Source: Clostridium sp. MB40-C1
Lineage (GTDB): Bacteria; Bacillota; Clostridia; Clostridiales; Clostridiaceae
Reading direction: 5' to 3'
NCBI RefSeq assembly: GCF_030913655.1
Contig: NZ_CP133189.1
Span: 3,648,001-3,712,000 of the forward strand
DNA length: 64,000 nt
In this document: positions 46,055 through 50,606 of the stretch, in pieces
Layout: each line of letters begins with the position of its first letter
Numbering within the stretch: position 1 is the first letter of the stretch
Notes under the pieces: generated by a model
Databases searched by the model: none
Told to the model about the DNA's origin: nothing
What the model saw: the letters and a program-made list of their open reading frames with translations, nothing else
Translations under genes and position numbers: made by a program

Positions 46055-47533
46055 ATGTTATATATTGGAGTTGATCTCGGTACATCAGCCGTAAAGTTGT
46101 TGTTAATGGATGAAACAGGAAAAATCCACAATATTGTTTCGAAGGAATATCCGCTGTATTTTTTGAATCCAGGCTGGTCGGAGCAGAAACCAGAGGATTG
46201 GTATGCACAGACACTATTGGGAATCGAAGAGTTGATTTCAAATTGTAAGAAGAGAGATATTGCTGGCATTAGTTTTGGAGGACAGATGCACGGTTTGGTT
46301 GTTCTTGATGCCAAGGATAAGGTTATTCGTCCGGCGATTTTGTGGAATGACGGAAGAACTGGAAAAGAGACGGATTATCTAAATAACATGATTGGAAAGG
46401 AAAAGCTTTCTCAGTATACGGCAAATGTTGCTTTTGCTGGATTTACTGCACCGAAAATCCTCTGGATGAAGGCGCAGGAACCAGAAAACTTTGCACGGAT
46501 AGCAAAAATCATGCTACCAAAAGATTATCTGGCGTATCGCTTAAGTGGAGTGCATTGCACGGATTATTCCGATGCTTCTGGAATGTTGCTTCTTGATGTG
46601 AAAAATAAATGCTGGTCAAAAGAAATGATGGAAATATGCGGTGTTACTGAAGAACAGTTACCGAAGTTGTATGAGAGTTATGAGGTTGTGGGAACGTTAC
46701 AGCCGGATATTGCAGAAAAACTGGGATTGTCATCAGATGTGAAAATTATTGCAGGAGCTGGAGATAATGCCGCTGCTGCTGTTGGAACTGGAACAGTAGG
46801 TGATGGTATGTGTAATATTTCCTTGGGGACATCTGGAACGATTTTTATTTCCAGTAAAACTTTTGGCGTTGACAAGAATAATGCGTTGCACTCCTTTGCT
46901 CATGCGGATGGATATTACCATCTGATGGGGTGCATGTTAAGTGCTGCCTCATGTAATAAGTGGTGGATGGACGAGATTTTGAAGACAAGTGAATACGTAA
47001 AAGAACAAGAAAATATTGCAAAATTAGGTGAAAACAAGGTGTTCTATTTGCCGTATCTAATGGGAGAACGCTCACCTCATAATGATCCCAAAGCGAGAGC
47101 AACTTTTACCGGAATGACGATGGATACTACCCGTGAGGAAATGACACAGGCAGTGTTGGAAGGTGTGACATTTGGTCTGAGGGATTCTCTAGAAGTGGCA
47201 AGAAGTTTGGGAATTAAGATTAAGCGCACAAAAATTTGTGGTGGTGGAGCTAAAAGTAAGCTGTGGAAAAAGATTATTGCAAATGTGATGAATCTTACAG
47301 TAGATGTGATTGAAAGTGAGGAAGGACCGGGTTATGGTGGGGCCATTCTTGCTGCAGTAGGATGTGGTGAATTTTCTTCTGTGGAAGAGGCAGCAGGGAA
47401 ACTTGTAAAAATAATTGATACTATAGAGCCGGAATCGAAGTTGGTAGAAAAATACGAGGAAAGATATCAGAAATTCCGTCAGATTTATCCGACGATGAAA
47501 GAACTATTCCAGACACTAGCAGAAAACAAATAA
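46055..47533 (+). CDS. xylB: Xylulokinase
   Basis: FGGY-family kinase that phosphorylates D-xylulose to xylulose 5-phosphate. Motifs: LYIGVDLGTSAVKLLLMDETG (phosphate 1), the substrate motif FGGQMHGLVVLD and ILWNDGRT, NISLGTSGTIF, and the C-terminal ATP site ICGGGAKSKLWKKIIANV. At 492 residues it is full length. TTTTGGAGG precedes the ATG. No xylose isomerase is nearby, so xylulose is expected to come from the polyol dehydrogenase of this operon rather than from xylose. Codon use is G+C-richer than the surrounding genome (CTGGCG, CCGGAATCG). Confidence 0.94.
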   Translation: MLYIGVDLGTSAVKLLLMDETGKIHNIVSKEYPLYFLNPGWSEQKPEDWYAQTLLGIEELISNCKKRDIAGISFGGQMHGLVVLDAKDKVIRPAILWNDGRTGKETDYLNNMIGKEKLSQYTANVAFAGFTAPKILWMKAQEPENFARIAKIMLPKDYLAYRLSGVHCTDYSDASGMLLLDVKNKCWSKEMMEICGVTEEQLPKLYESYEVVGTLQPDIAEKLGLSSDVKIIAGAGDNAAAAVGTGTVGDGMCNISLGTSGTIFISSKTFGVDKNNALHSFAHADGYYHLMGCMLSAASCNKWWMDEILKTSEYVKEQENIAKLGENKVFYLPYLMGERSPHNDPKARATFTGMTMDTTREEMTQAVLEGVTFGLRDSLEVARSLGIKIKRTKICGGGAKSKLWKKIIANVMNLTVDVIESEEGPGYGGAILAAVGCGEFSSVEEAAGKLVKIIDTIEPESKLVEKYEERYQKFRQIYPTMKELFQTLAENK

Positions 47534-47576
47534 AAAACTATATACAAAAATATTAGTATAATTGTACTAAAAAGTG

Positions 47577-47605
47577 TTTACATTAATAAGTTATTTTAAT
47601 ATAGT
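47577..47605 (+). promoter_or_regulatory. Candidate promoter for thiW-thiM
   Basis: TTTACA (47577-47582), 17 nt, TATAGT (47600-47605), upstream of both riboswitch elements. A near-palindrome TTCAACACATGTTGAA follows at 47621-47636; its role is unknown. Confidence 0.55.
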
Positions 47606-47740
47606 TTTCAATGTTTGGTATTCAACACATGTTGAAACTGTGGTTAAGATGTATCTTAATGCAAGATGCTGAAACTATACCATATGGTGTGTATAAGTGC
47701 AATATAATACGATATATTGAATCTAAGAAATTTGTGTGAT

Positions 47741-47844
47741 ATAATTTAAAAAAGGGGAGCTTGCAATGTAGGCTGAGAGGAAGCGTATGCTTCGACCCAT
47801 AACTTGATTCGGATAATGCCGACGTAAGGAAATATTTAAATTAT
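47741..47844 (+). ncRNA. TPP riboswitch aptamer (THI box)
   Basis: A canonical thiamine pyrophosphate riboswitch. Closing stem P1 is a perfect 10-bp pair, ATAATTTAAA (47741-47750) with TTTAAATTAT (47835-47844). Conserved parts are GGGG, a P3 stem, CTGAGAGG, a P3a hairpin GAAGC-GTAT-GCTTC, ACCC, ACTTGATTCGGATAATGCCG and ACGTAAGGA. The CTGAGA segment binds the pyrimidine ring and the GGATAATGCC arm the pyrophosphate in known structures. It controls the thiW-thiM transcript through the terminator that follows. Confidence 0.95.
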
Positions 47845-47872
47845 ACTATTTGATTATATATTTTATGAGTAT

Positions 47873-47910
47873 AAATGGGATATGCCTTATTTGGTGTATT
47901 CCATTTTTTA
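47873..47910 (+). terminator. Expression-platform terminator of the TPP riboswitch
   Basis: AAATGGGATATGCC pairs with GGTGTATTCCATTT (one mismatch, some wobble) and leads into T6. Its position about 30 nt after the aptamer fits termination when TPP is bound. Confidence 0.8.
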
Positions 47911-47973
47911 TGTTTCAAGGAATAATATTTAATAAGCGAAGAGGGAGCGCTCGGAGCTTATATGGTAAAAATA

Positions 47974-48075
47974 TAACTAAATAGCGAGGGAACTTGTGTT
48001 TCAAGGTGAGAGGAAGCTTTTGAGCTTCGACCGACCAATATGTCTTATGTCATATGAGAAAATGCTATTTAGTTA
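47974..48075 (+). ncRNA. Second, diverged TPP-like aptamer
   Basis: A perfect 12-bp closing stem, TAACTAAATAGC (47974-47985) with GCTATTTAGTTA (48064-48075), encloses a fold laid out like the THI box: a P3-like stem CTTG/CAAG, TGAGAGG in the place of CTGAGAGG, a P3a hairpin GAAGCT-TTTG-AGCTTC, and GACC. The second arm, however, reads ATATG-TCTTATGT-CATAT followed by GAGAAAAT, without the GGATAATGCC pyrophosphate-binding sequence. It is either a degenerate copy or a variant with changed ligand. Another small stem (ATAAGC/GCTTAT, 47932-47961) lies between the two elements. Confidence 0.5.
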
Positions 48076-48096
48076 CGCATAAAGTTATGCCTCTAT

Positions 48097-48140
48097 AATA
48101 TTGTTTATTTTCTGTATGACATAGCTAGAAAATAAATATT
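48097..48140 (+). promoter_or_regulatory. Hairpin just before the thiW ribosome-binding site
   Basis: AATATTGTTTATTTTC (48097-48112) pairs with GAAAATAAATATT (48128-48140), ending 3 nt before AAGGAGG. It could be part of the expression platform of the diverged aptamer. Confidence 0.45.
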
Positions 48141-48159
48141 CTTAAGGAGGTATTTTATT

Positions 48160-48732
48160 ATGGAAAAAAACTCAAAATTATTAAAAAAGCTTATGTTAGC
48201 AATGATGGTGGCAATGGGAGTTGTAATTTCACCAATTCTTCGTATTGAAGGAATGTGTCCTATGGCTCACTTTATTAACATTGTATGTTCTGTAATTTTG
48301 GGACCTTGGTATTCACTACTTTGTGCTACATTAATTGGTGTAATAAGAATGTCTTTTATGGGAATTCCACCATTAGCTTTGACTGGAGCAGTTTTTGGGG
48401 CAGTTTTATCTGGAGTTCTATACAGAGCATCTAAAGGAAAGTTGATTTGTGCTGTTATAGGTGAGGTTATAGGAACGGGTATTATAGGAGCCATACTTTC
48501 ATATCCTGTTATGACATTTGTTTGGGGTAGAACAGGGCTTACATGGATCTTTTATGTTCCTTCATTTATTATGGGAACACTTATTGGAGGAACAATTGCA
48601 TTTGTTTTTCTAGGAGCATTAAGCAAGAGTGGTATGCTTGTGAAAATTCAGAGAAGTTTGGGGGCAAAAGTTTATGACAAACCAAAAGTTAATAACAATA
48701 AACAACCTATTGCTAATAAGACAGAGTATTAA
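48160..48732 (+). CDS. thiW: ThiW, predicted hydroxyethylthiazole transport protein (ECF S component)
   Basis: Small integral membrane protein of the ThiW family, predicted from riboswitch association to import the thiazole precursor of thiamine as the S component of an ECF transporter. Five to six hydrophobic helices are visible; characteristic stretches are SPILRIEGMCPMAHFINIVCSVILGPWYSLLCA and GIPPLALTGAVFGAVLSG. AAGGAGG lies 9 nt before the ATG. The 3' end overlaps thiM by 59 nt in another frame. The leader carries a TPP riboswitch and a second TPP-like element, so expression should fall when TPP is plentiful. The energising ECF-A/A'/T genes are not in the window. Confidence 0.92.
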   Translation: MEKNSKLLKKLMLAMMVAMGVVISPILRIEGMCPMAHFINIVCSVILGPWYSLLCATLIGVIRMSFMGIPPLALTGAVFGAVLSGVLYRASKGKLICAVIGEVIGTGIIGAILSYPVMTFVWGRTGLTWIFYVPSFIMGTLIGGTIAFVFLGALSKSGMLVKIQRSLGAKVYDKPKVNNNKQPIANKTEY

Positions 48733-49507
48733 ATTAAAAAAGCCTCTTATCCACTGTATTACAAATCCTATTTCAATAAATGATTGTGCAAATATGGTAC
48801 TGGCTGTTGGTGGAAAACCTATTATGGCAGAGCATCCTTTAGAAGTTTCTCAAATTACTGCTGTTTCTAATTCACTTGGAATTAATCTTGGGAATATAAC
48901 AGATAACAGAATGAAATCTATGTTAATTTCGGGTAAAATAGCTTTTCAAAATAAAATTCCACAGGTACTTGATCTTGTAGGTGTGGGATGTAGTAAACTT
49001 CGTCTAGATTACGCAAATAAATTCATTTCAGAGTGTCATCCAAGTGTTATTAAAGGTAATATGTCTGAAATAAAAGCGTTTTGTGGTATGAAAAGTGATG
49101 CAAGAGGAATTGATGTTGGAGCATGTGACATTATAACAAAGGAAAATTCTGATGAAAATATAGAATTGCTAAGAAAATTGTCACTACAAACAGGATCTGT
49201 TATTGTAGCAACAGGAGAGATAGATATAATAACAAATGGCGTTTATACATATTTGATAATGAATGGTTGTAAGATGCTTTCAATGATAACTGGAACAGGT
49301 TGTATGCTTAATGCACTTATAGCAAGCTATATTTCTTGTGAGAATATACTAGAGGGTACTGTACTTGCAGTAGTTCTTATGGGAATATGTGGTGAACTTT
49401 CTCAGCATGTTAAGGGTACAGGAAGCTTTAGAACTGAACTTATAGATAATATGTTTAGTATTTCGGATGATATAATAATAAAGAAAATAAAATACAAATT
49501 AAAATGA
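48674..49507 (+). CDS. thiM: Hydroxyethylthiazole kinase
   Basis: ThiM phosphorylates 4-methyl-5-(2-hydroxyethyl)thiazole with ATP for thiamine salvage. Family motifs: PLIHCITNPISINDCANMVLAVGGKPIMAEHPLE at the N-terminus, QVLDLVGVGCSKLR, VIKGNMSEIKAF, and the catalytic/phosphate region MITGTGCMLNALIASYIS with the conserved cysteine. The residue after LIH.ITN is C rather than the usual N (HCITN versus HNITN), a small variation. The start at 48674 overlaps thiW by 59 nt and has GGGGG 9 nt upstream; the long overlap is unusual but no better start exists. A strong terminator follows. Confidence 0.92.
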   Translation: MTNQKLITINNLLLIRQSIKLKKPLIHCITNPISINDCANMVLAVGGKPIMAEHPLEVSQITAVSNSLGINLGNITDNRMKSMLISGKIAFQNKIPQVLDLVGVGCSKLRLDYANKFISECHPSVIKGNMSEIKAFCGMKSDARGIDVGACDIITKENSDENIELLRKLSLQTGSVIVATGEIDIITNGVYTYLIMNGCKMLSMITGTGCMLNALIASYISCENILEGTVLAVVLMGICGELSQHVKGTGSFRTELIDNMFSISDDIIIKKIKYKLK

Positions 49508-49521
49508 AAATATAAGAAGTG

Positions 49522-49560
49522 ATAAATGAGGCTACTGTAACGGTAGTCTCATTTATTATT
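49522..49560 (+). terminator. Terminator after thiM
   Basis: AAATGAGGCTAC pairs with GTAGTCTCATTT around TGTAACG, with a T-rich tail. Confidence 0.85.
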
Positions 49561-49631
49561 TAATAATAAATAATAAATAACTAATTAGTATAATTAATTT
49601 TGTAGAATAGATTAATATTCTTAAGAATATA

Positions 49632-49662
49632 TTGACTCTCACGTTACGTAATAGTGTATATT
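49632..49662 (+). promoter_or_regulatory. MerR-type promoter with 19-bp spacer
   Basis: TTGACT (49632-49637) and TATATT (49657-49662) are separated by 19 nt, the overlong spacer that MerR-family activators untwist. The spacer holds a dyad CTCACGTTACGTAATAGTG, close to operators of Mta/TipA-type regulators. The MerR-family gene is second in the operon it would control. Confidence 0.8.
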
Positions 49663-49685
49663 AATATTGCAAAGGAGATGGTTAT

Positions 49686-50606
49686 ATGAATATTACACTA
49701 ATACGTTCAGATGAAATTTATAAAAAAATGATAAATTCACCAAAAGAAAAGAGAGATGATATTTATCGTCACGAATTAATGAAGCCTTTTGAATTTAAGT
49801 GGTCTTGCATTAATGTGCCACTTAAGTCACCGCAAAAAGGTGGCTATGATGTAATTATGGCAAGTAGTATGCTTGGAAATTTGCCACCATCAGAGGTAGA
49901 TGAAACAAAAAAGGAAGTTATAAATTTAATTTCAAAGGATAATTTGTGGAAAACTTGTGAAAAAACCATTCAAAATTCTTTAGAACGTTTTACAAAATCA
50001 GGATATGAATTGCCAGTAAAAGACTATATGTTTTCTATTATACTTGCAAACCCAAAAAGTCCATATATATCAATGAGTGATGGTTATCTTGGAGATGGTG
50101 GTATTCCTGGATACATTTTTGTAGGACTCGTGCCAAGTGAATATACCATCAGCAGGATTCCTGCTGCTTTGGCTCATGAATGCAATCATAATGTACGTTT
50201 TCAATTTGAAAAGTGGAAGAATGATATTACATTAGCAGAAATGATGATCTGTGAAGGGCTTGCCGAAAATTTTGCTACATCAATGTTTGGTGAGGATATG
50301 ATTGGACCTTGGGTAAGCAAAACTGAGATGGATACTTTAAATGATTATATCAAGCCAATCATTAGAGATGCCTTAGATGTAACAGGACTTGAGAGTATCA
50401 CAGCATATCTTTGGGGTGATGAACTTGCACAGCTGCAAGGATATTTTCCTGTAGGACTTCCTTATTGTGCGGGCTATGCATGCGGTTATTATATGATTAA
50501 GCATTATTTGAAAAAGACAGGAAAATCAATTGAAGAAGCTACATTAACATCTGCAAGTGAAATAATGAAGGAAATAGAGGATTTTTGGGATGAAGAATCA
50601 GTTTAA
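49686..50606 (+). CDS. DUF2268 putative zinc-dependent protease
   Basis: Cytosolic protein of the DUF2268 family with a zincin motif: H164-E165-C-N-H168 (AHECNHNVRFQF) and a downstream glutamate in MMICEGLAENFATSMFGED (E190), as expected for a gluzincin-type metallopeptidase. No signal peptide or membrane segment. Its substrate is unknown. AAAGGAGATG precedes the ATG. The gene overlaps the MerR-family regulator by 17 nt, so the two are coupled and are presumably induced together from the MerR-type promoter at 49632; a stress or drug-response role is inferred from that pairing only. Confidence 0.82.
   Translation: MNITLIRSDEIYKKMINSPKEKRDDIYRHELMKPFEFKWSCINVPLKSPQKGGYDVIMASSMLGNLPPSEVDETKKEVINLISKDNLWKTCEKTIQNSLERFTKSGYELPVKDYMFSIILANPKSPYISMSDGYLGDGGIPGYIFVGLVPSEYTISRIPAALAHECNHNVRFQFEKWKNDITLAEMMICEGLAENFATSMFGEDMIGPWVSKTEMDTLNDYIKPIIRDALDVTGLESITAYLWGDELAQLQGYFPVGLPYCAGYACGYYMIKHYLKKTGKSIEEATLTSASEIMKEIEDFWDEESV

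Follow-up and report, generated by a model that had tools for sequence, protein, structure and literature searches.

A stretch of 64,000 nucleotides from Clostridium sp. MB40-C1 (contig NZ_CP133189.1, positions 3,648,001 to 3,712,000 of the forward strand; hereafter the window) carries two RNA elements in a row in front of the thiamin genes thiW and thiM (Table 1). The first is a canonical thiamin pyrophosphate (TPP) riboswitch with an intrinsic terminator on its 3' side. The second, called the element here, is a bipartite RNA in which a separate hairpin, Box A, precedes a TPP-like arm closed by the stem P1. This candidate appears to be a real, so far undescribed riboswitch derived from the TPP aptamer. 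That it is a conserved regulatory RNA is almost certain, and that this RNA is a riboswitch is very probable.

Table 1. Features of the thiW-thiM leader and the genes behind it (window positions)
Feature	Positions	Strand	Details
Canonical TPP riboswitch aptamer, first of the tandem	47743..47849	+	Rfam RF00059, 63.5 bits (gathering score 54.3)
Intrinsic terminator 3' of the TPP aptamer	47873..47910	+	14-pair stem 47873-47906 and T run
Bipartite RNA, overall	47932-48075	+	Box A hairpin, P1, TPP-like pyrimidine arm, variable arm
Box A hairpin	47932..47961	+	outer stem 47932-47937/47956-47961; inner stem 47941-47943/47950-47952; hexaloop GGAGCG 47944-47949
P1, 5' strand	47974..47985	+	12 bp with 48064-48075
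P1, 3' strand	48064..48075	+	pairs with 47974-47985
Core	47988..48032	+	GGGA, P3, UGAGAG, P3a, GACC in that order
GGGA	47988-47991	+	part of core
P3	47993-47996/48002-48005	+	loop UGUUU
TGAGAG (UGAGAG) joint	48007-48012	+	part of core
P3a	48013-48017/48024-48028	+	part of core
GACC	48029-48032	+	end of core
Arm hairpin, ATATG/CATAT	48038..48055	+	stems 48038-48042/48051-48055; located where TPP aptamers have the pyrophosphate arm
Putative switching strand (3' half of arm)	48045..48063	+	complementary to 48107-48124
Shine-Dalgarno-sequestering hairpin	48089..48151	+	its 5' half, 48107-48124, can pair with the putative switching strand; GGAGG 48146-48150
thiW, energy-coupling factor transporter S component for thiazole precursor	48160..48732	+	TIGR02359, 134.7 bits, above cut-off; PF09512
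thiM, hydroxyethylthiazole kinase	48674..49507	+	NF006830, 250 bits, above cut-off; PF02110; overlaps thiW in the open reading frame call

The original prediction had described the element as a TPP-like RNA with P1, a P3-like stem, TGAGAG, P3a, GACC and an ATATG/CATAT arm. All of these parts are present in the sequence, where the arm reads ATATG-TCTTATGT-CATAT. Three features go beyond that description, namely the Box A hairpin, the complementarity of the arm to the Shine-Dalgarno hairpin and a conserved P3 loop, UGUUY. The fold of the element is more stable than those of shuffled sequences (z = -3.5). It had been suggested to search the locus with both the Rfam TPP model and a model built from the element. 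RF00059 is absent over the element in the Rfam scan even at E values up to 10, and our own covariance model, R1, gives 87.2 bits over 47928-48037, the window being one of its training sequences. No other family reaches its gathering score on the element. The relaxed Rfam matches that overlap it are at chance level (snoR41, E 7.7; snoZ199, E 8.6 on the other strand) and far below their own cut-offs, and a mir-4875 match (E 0.0064; 26.1 of 90 bits) sits on the Shine-Dalgarno hairpin behind it. Rfam matches at gathering level were found over the element in none of the 60 element loci scanned; annotation at this level is blind to it there as in the window.

In known TPP RNA structures the pyrimidine ring sits at the UGAGA joint, and the pyrophosphate is bound by the other arm. 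The element has the pyrimidine-sensing arm of RF00059 (P2, P3 and the UGAGA joint). No P4/P5, the pyrophosphate-sensing arm with a conserved loop and joint, was found in it. None of 91 cores is followed within 110 nt by TAATNCC, the motif of that arm, whereas all 27 control TPP aptamers, picked by pattern in these loci, have it. Together with the lack of an RF00059 match, this bears out the view of the element as a TPP-like variant that lacks the pyrophosphate arm.

Conservation was followed in a sample selected by protein. There are 152 stretches that encode a ThiW relative, and the best 80 were kept, chosen by the ThiW protein alone; some of them are near-copies (e.g., L065 and L072-L074). 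The core is found 5' of thiW in 73 of the 80 loci by pattern, and R1 gives the same 73 with scores of 47.7-98.8 bits, most of these being training sequences. Homologous elements in related thiW leaders, as anticipated, are thus common. A hairpin with hexaloop GGAGCN and a stem of at least 3 bp lies 28-85 nt before the core in 70 of the 73. Note that R1 scores under about 60 bits need to be read by eye, because R1 also scores TPP riboswitches and reaches 50.6 bits on one elsewhere (L113). Twelve loci with a best R1 score of at most 50.6 bits were fetched (L113-L124), and all ten of these whose stretch covers the place have the TPP pyrophosphate arm. Second R1 matches of 20-44 bits, found upstream in many of the 73 loci, are TPP riboswitches where Rfam names one. 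On the neighboring TPP riboswitch in the window R1 matches weakly (20.9 bits, E 0.0014), which supports descent of the element from a TPP aptamer. The ordinary TPP riboswitches of L113, L115-L117, L123 and L124 have a P3 end, GUGUUAC, near the GUGUUUC of the element, a hint of the ancestor.

R1 was built from an alignment, A2, in which 56 of 67 listed sequences are aligned (L040, L051, L054, L058, L061, L068, L076, L081, L082, L087 and L088 are omitted; L053, L083 and L086, in which Box A differs, are unlisted, and L036 and L072-L074 are copies). RNAalifold predicts three hairpins with compensatory changes in 17 of 18 pairs. When the two-pair GG/CC helix is added, the count is 17 of 20; the GG/CC of P2 is invariant and hence has no covariation support. 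With this helix included, 97.7% of the 1120 cells of the structure pair and 288 cells are changed on both sides. None of 500 shuffles reaches any of five measures, and in slid controls the paired share drops to 36-48%. The Box A hairpin has compensatory changes in all nine counted pairs. P3 and P3a covary as well; the original prediction had set covariation of stems against random substitution, and compensated changes are what the alignment holds.

The loops and the closing stem differ in how strictly they are kept. Of 93 distinct cores in a tally, 88 have UGUUY (UGUUU or UGUUC) as the P3 loop. UGAGAG is present in 92 of the 93 and CGAGAG in one, the search pattern itself having required [TC]GAGAG; the tally omits L051 and L067, which have the element with the joint CTGAGA. 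Among the 18 Clostridium-type leaders P1 has 9-12 of its 12 pairs and nearly constant letters. Over a wider set of 85 places, P1 is equaled by at most 2 of 50 shuffles in 35 (two of the 85, one in L076 and one in L079, are not the element). The ends of P1 differ by group (TAGC, CAGC, ATGC). The GGAGC hexaloop and the UGUUY loop could in principle kiss, two of the pairs being G-U. The odd loops of L051, L061, L067 and L081, judged by eye, do not follow this pairing, and it stands only as a guess.

The element is larger and much more widely distributed than the original prediction saw, and its recurrence goes far beyond what chance would give. BLASTN with 151 bases of it matches 11 of 147 genomes, the own genome included, and no match was found among plasmids. 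R1 at 65 bits or more finds it in 18 of 391 genomes of the class, again with the own genome. At E <=1e-9, 6 of 398 genomes of the phylum have it, and two of these (the own genome and G141) are already in the class count. At E <=1e-10, it is found in 4 of 16 genomes in the family of G183, all counted before, and in 13 of 246 in the order of G261, one counted before. Among the sources of the ThiW loci are Clostridium, Haloimpatiens, Pelosinus, Propionispora, Propionispira, Enterocloster, Evtepia and many metagenome-assembled genomes. The element spans two classes, Clostridia and Negativicutes, the latter with Propionispira. Of the 146 genomes in the window's own family, 74 encode a ThiW-like protein (1e-15). 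Thirty of these loci were fetched, and all 16 with a ThiW at least 67% identical to that of the window carry the element at 83.7 bits or more (one of them, L144, is one piece of a split gene). The other 14 have no element (best R1 28.4 bits). In L144 the thiW match lies in two pieces about 2.5 kb apart (G869:C9:794391-794732 and 797261-797497), which suggests an insertion. L137 (G036:C1:3282526-3283095) has two in-frame TAA codons in its thiW match and still an element of 83.7 bits.

The only genes identified behind the element are thiW and thiM (in the window, TIGR00694 on thiM is below its own cut-off). Strong matches outside the ThiW search that have a placeable gene stand before thiW (two subfamilies, about 28-44% alike in their matched parts) or thiM. 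A ThiM match is present in 79 of the 80 ThiW loci. In L105 (1501-1610) the element lies directly before thiM, after a gene for a permease of the cytosine/purine/thiamine family and without thiW, as a regulator internal to an operon. An exception is L194 (1501-1601, minus strand), which has no ThiW or ThiM in the 3-kb stretch scanned. Here the element follows ThiH- and ThiE-like open reading frames, named by eye, and it is perhaps an orphan.

The own genome has three TPP riboswitches, which are found at this operon, at an ABC transporter with an NMT1-type protein and at thiD-thiM-thiE-thiC. At the latter operon and at the transporter, which is of the hydroxymethylpyrimidine (HMP) type, there is no R1 match above 24.2 bits. 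The second RNA would guard the thiazole branch alone. ThiC, ThiD, ThiE, the NMT1-type transporter and two thiM genes are encoded in this genome, and no full ThiG is found: two matches of about 31 bits cover 55-92 of 247 positions, passing the Pfam cut-off of 23 bits, compared with 300-373 bits for the full ThiG of relatives. We read ThiG as absent. With ThiC, ThiD and ThiE and no full ThiG, the host would make the pyrimidine and therefore have to import the thiazole. By its gene content it looks dependent on thiazole salvage, hydroxyethylthiazole (HET) being its limiting half of thiamin.

The tandem with a canonical TPP riboswitch, claimed for this locus, holds in the window and fails as a general rule. 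Of the 60 element loci scanned, 33 have an Rfam-grade TPP riboswitch, which in L105 and L110 lies far upstream. In the other 27 there is none within the stretch of the locus scanned, and at least two of these (L053 and L078) have a weaker TPP-like match upstream. L048 (1044-1459) and L093 (1030-1451) have two TPP riboswitches followed by the element, that is, triple arrays before thiW.

The original prediction took the second arm for an altered pyrophosphate arm, a reading that is corrected here. The hairpin helix of the arm is kept in 92.2% of cells in 18 sequences, one pair having a compensatory change, and its letters vary between species. From its sequence the arm looks like the switching strand of an expression platform and not like a conserved ligand-binding arm, less clearly so in terminator-type leaders. 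In all 18 Clostridium-type leaders, the 3' half of the arm is predicted to form a duplex of 15-29 bp with the 5' half of the Shine-Dalgarno hairpin (18 bp in the window, with z from -2.3 to -5.5 against mononucleotide shuffles over the 18 leaders). In the aligned 17-pair duplex, 93.3% of cells are paired compared with 31-61% when slid, and 11 cells are changed on both sides; none of 500 shuffles is as high. Two-sided changes occur in four of its pairs, a number reached by 46 of 500 shuffles as well. The competing structure, aptamer plus sequestor, pairs in 92.4% of cells compared with 38-50% when slid (18 sequences). It has nine compensated pairs, reached by 9 of 500 shuffles, and does not exceed shuffles in the number of pair types.

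In 14 of the 18 leaders the Shine-Dalgarno sequence is predicted to be more often unpaired when the duplex forms. Its mean unpaired probability is 0.16 when P1 is enforced and 0.43 when the duplex is enforced; in the window the values are 0.01 and 0.37. A terminator was found by script rule in 18 of 23 other leaders. The arm is complementary to the 5' side of the terminator in five of these (L035, L043, L193, L196 and L197; z -2.5 to -4.2), and in the remaining 13 the pairing has z from -2.0 to +0.5. A P1 strand shared with the antisequestor was also considered and rejected. It pairs in 87.7% of cells, but without covariation; all 500 shuffles equal or better it, a +3 slide still gives 78.6%, and the energy gain is mostly within shuffles.

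Taken together, a TPP-derived cis-regulatory RNA, likely a riboswitch, that controls HET salvage is the probable reading when the exact ligand is left aside. The ancestor would be the pyrimidine-binding half of a TPP aptamer, of which GGGA, P3, UGAGAG, P3a and GACC were kept. The pyrophosphate arm would have been discarded and a separate hairpin with the nearly fixed GGAGCG loop gained. The 3' half of the arm may pair within the arm or, in the Clostridium type, with the 5' half of the hairpin that sequesters the Shine-Dalgarno sequence; in some leaders it may pair with the terminator stem instead. Binding of a small molecule would choose between the two pairings. HMP pyrophosphate (HMP-PP) or a related free HMP form comes first among candidate ligands, followed by thiamin monophosphate (TMP) or thiamin, HET phosphate (HET-P) and TPP. 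HMP-PP is favored because the HMP pocket is kept and because the gene niche is common with that of the HMP-PP riboswitch. It may act as an ON signal, HET being needed when HMP-PP piles up. The choice of HMP-PP or another free HMP form is tentative, and for the ligand acting as an ON signal the balance is nearly level. It is an even question whether the class as a whole, evolved from the TPP aptamer by discarding the arm and recruiting the GGAGCG hairpin, provides Clostridia and Negativicutes with a second, structurally different HMP-PP sensor (or a HET-P sensor) and with a two-input gate on thiazole salvage. If so, an RNA aptamer was halved and rebuilt while its parent kind of riboswitch often still adjoins it, and the evolution of specificity becomes directly testable. 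It would also explain how thiazole uptake is tuned in bacteria that make the pyrimidine of vitamin B1 but not the thiazole.

Several observations weigh against the reading given above. The arm that would grip a pyrophosphate is missing, although HMP-PP has one. Most of the short, Ruminococcus-type leaders lack a P1 that stands out from shuffles. In 4 of the 18 Clostridium-type leaders the duplex opens the Shine-Dalgarno sequence no further. The minimum-energy folds with the duplex enforced keep this sequence at least partly paired in all 18 (completely in L026 and L029), and in each of the 18 the P1 state has the lower energy; switching would therefore have to be kinetic. The switching strand adjoins P1 and has no letters in common with it in the aligned pairs, so the pairing leaves the sign unfixed. 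Two readings are compatible with this: the bound aptamer may keep the nested arm hairpin (OFF), or it may form a pseudoknot in which P1 stacks on the long duplex (ON). If the bound state is P1 with the nested arm hairpin, the switch would be OFF, a poor fit to HMP-PP. An OFF riboswitch for a compound on the product side (HET, HET-P, thiamin or TMP), in which bound P1 and the nested arm let the Shine-Dalgarno hairpin or the terminator form and turn thiW-thiM off, is a serious possibility that stops short of being probable. The nested reading of the arm, with the Shine-Dalgarno sequence less exposed under P1, suits it, and the restriction of the element to HET genes fits feedback by HET-P. A Breaker-lab review reports, on the basis of unpublished findings, that thiamin or TMP is favored by some of the RNAs that are classed as TPP riboswitches (PMC9481103). 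A sensor of thiamin or TMP should govern HMP genes too, however, and the HMP loci of the own genome carry TPP riboswitches with R1 at no more than 24.2 bits. HET-P, for its part, has no pyrimidine for UGAGA to hold as it does in TPP RNAs.

Another TPP sensor, one that grips the pyrophosphate differently and steepens the response, would agree with the kept pyrimidine pocket and the adjoining TPP riboswitch, and tandem riboswitches for the same ligand are described in PMC9481103. The absence of TAATNCC after every core, the missing Rfam TPP match and the confinement to HET genes, unlike the TPP riboswitches of the own genome, make it unlikely. A structured leader bound by a protein instead of a metabolite is quite unlikely: the conserved hexaloop GGAGCG and the UGUUY loop could be protein sites, but the element resembles a metabolite aptamer and is carried by two bacterial classes. 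Decay of a functionless TPP riboswitch duplicate could account for the likeness to the neighboring riboswitch and for the missing pyrophosphate arm. It is highly improbable because of covariation in 17 of 20 pairs and conservation before thiW; the loops are conserved across many genera, and 27 of the 60 loci scanned have no Rfam-grade TPP riboswitch. As a general explanation decay is refuted. The original prediction's doubt about pure decay is borne out by covarying stems and by homologues in most thiW leaders examined.

A literature search found no description of such an RNA, most subscription journals lying outside its coverage, and none is described in the accessible portions of PMC6429828, PMC8632094, PMC11109978 and PMC12452182. 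Among known systems, the TPP riboswitch (RF00059, THI box) has P1, GGGG/GGGA with GACC, P3, the UGAGA joint and P3a in the same order and the same position in thiamin leaders. The element differs from it in lacking the GGATAATGCC-type arm and in scoring below the cut-off of 54.3 bits, and also in its P3 loop UGUUY, its extra upstream GGAGCG hairpin and the restriction of the genes behind it to thiW and thiM. The TPP-class variants for thiamin or TMP (Breaker lab, unpublished, as mentioned in PMC9481103) are likewise TPP-like RNAs of altered specificity and are considered for tandem arrangements; the present element is outside the Rfam TPP model. The thiS motif was not recognized among the terminators of 30 ThiG loci, where it was looked for without its consensus sequence. 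According to PMC6478431, this HMP-PP riboswitch regulates HET genes, follows TPP riboswitches in about 30% of cases, was tested on thiW of C. lundense and is an ON switch. It thus has the same niche as the element (HET genes including thiW, often right after a TPP riboswitch, also alone; PMC6478431, PMC6429828). It is set apart by its description as a compact aptamer embedded in an intrinsic terminator. The conserved part of the element is separate from its platform. In the window, the terminator of the TPP riboswitch is the sole terminator-like site within 47500-49700 (shuffles average 0.7) and none lies at the element, unlike in the thiS motif; some other element loci have a terminator further downstream.
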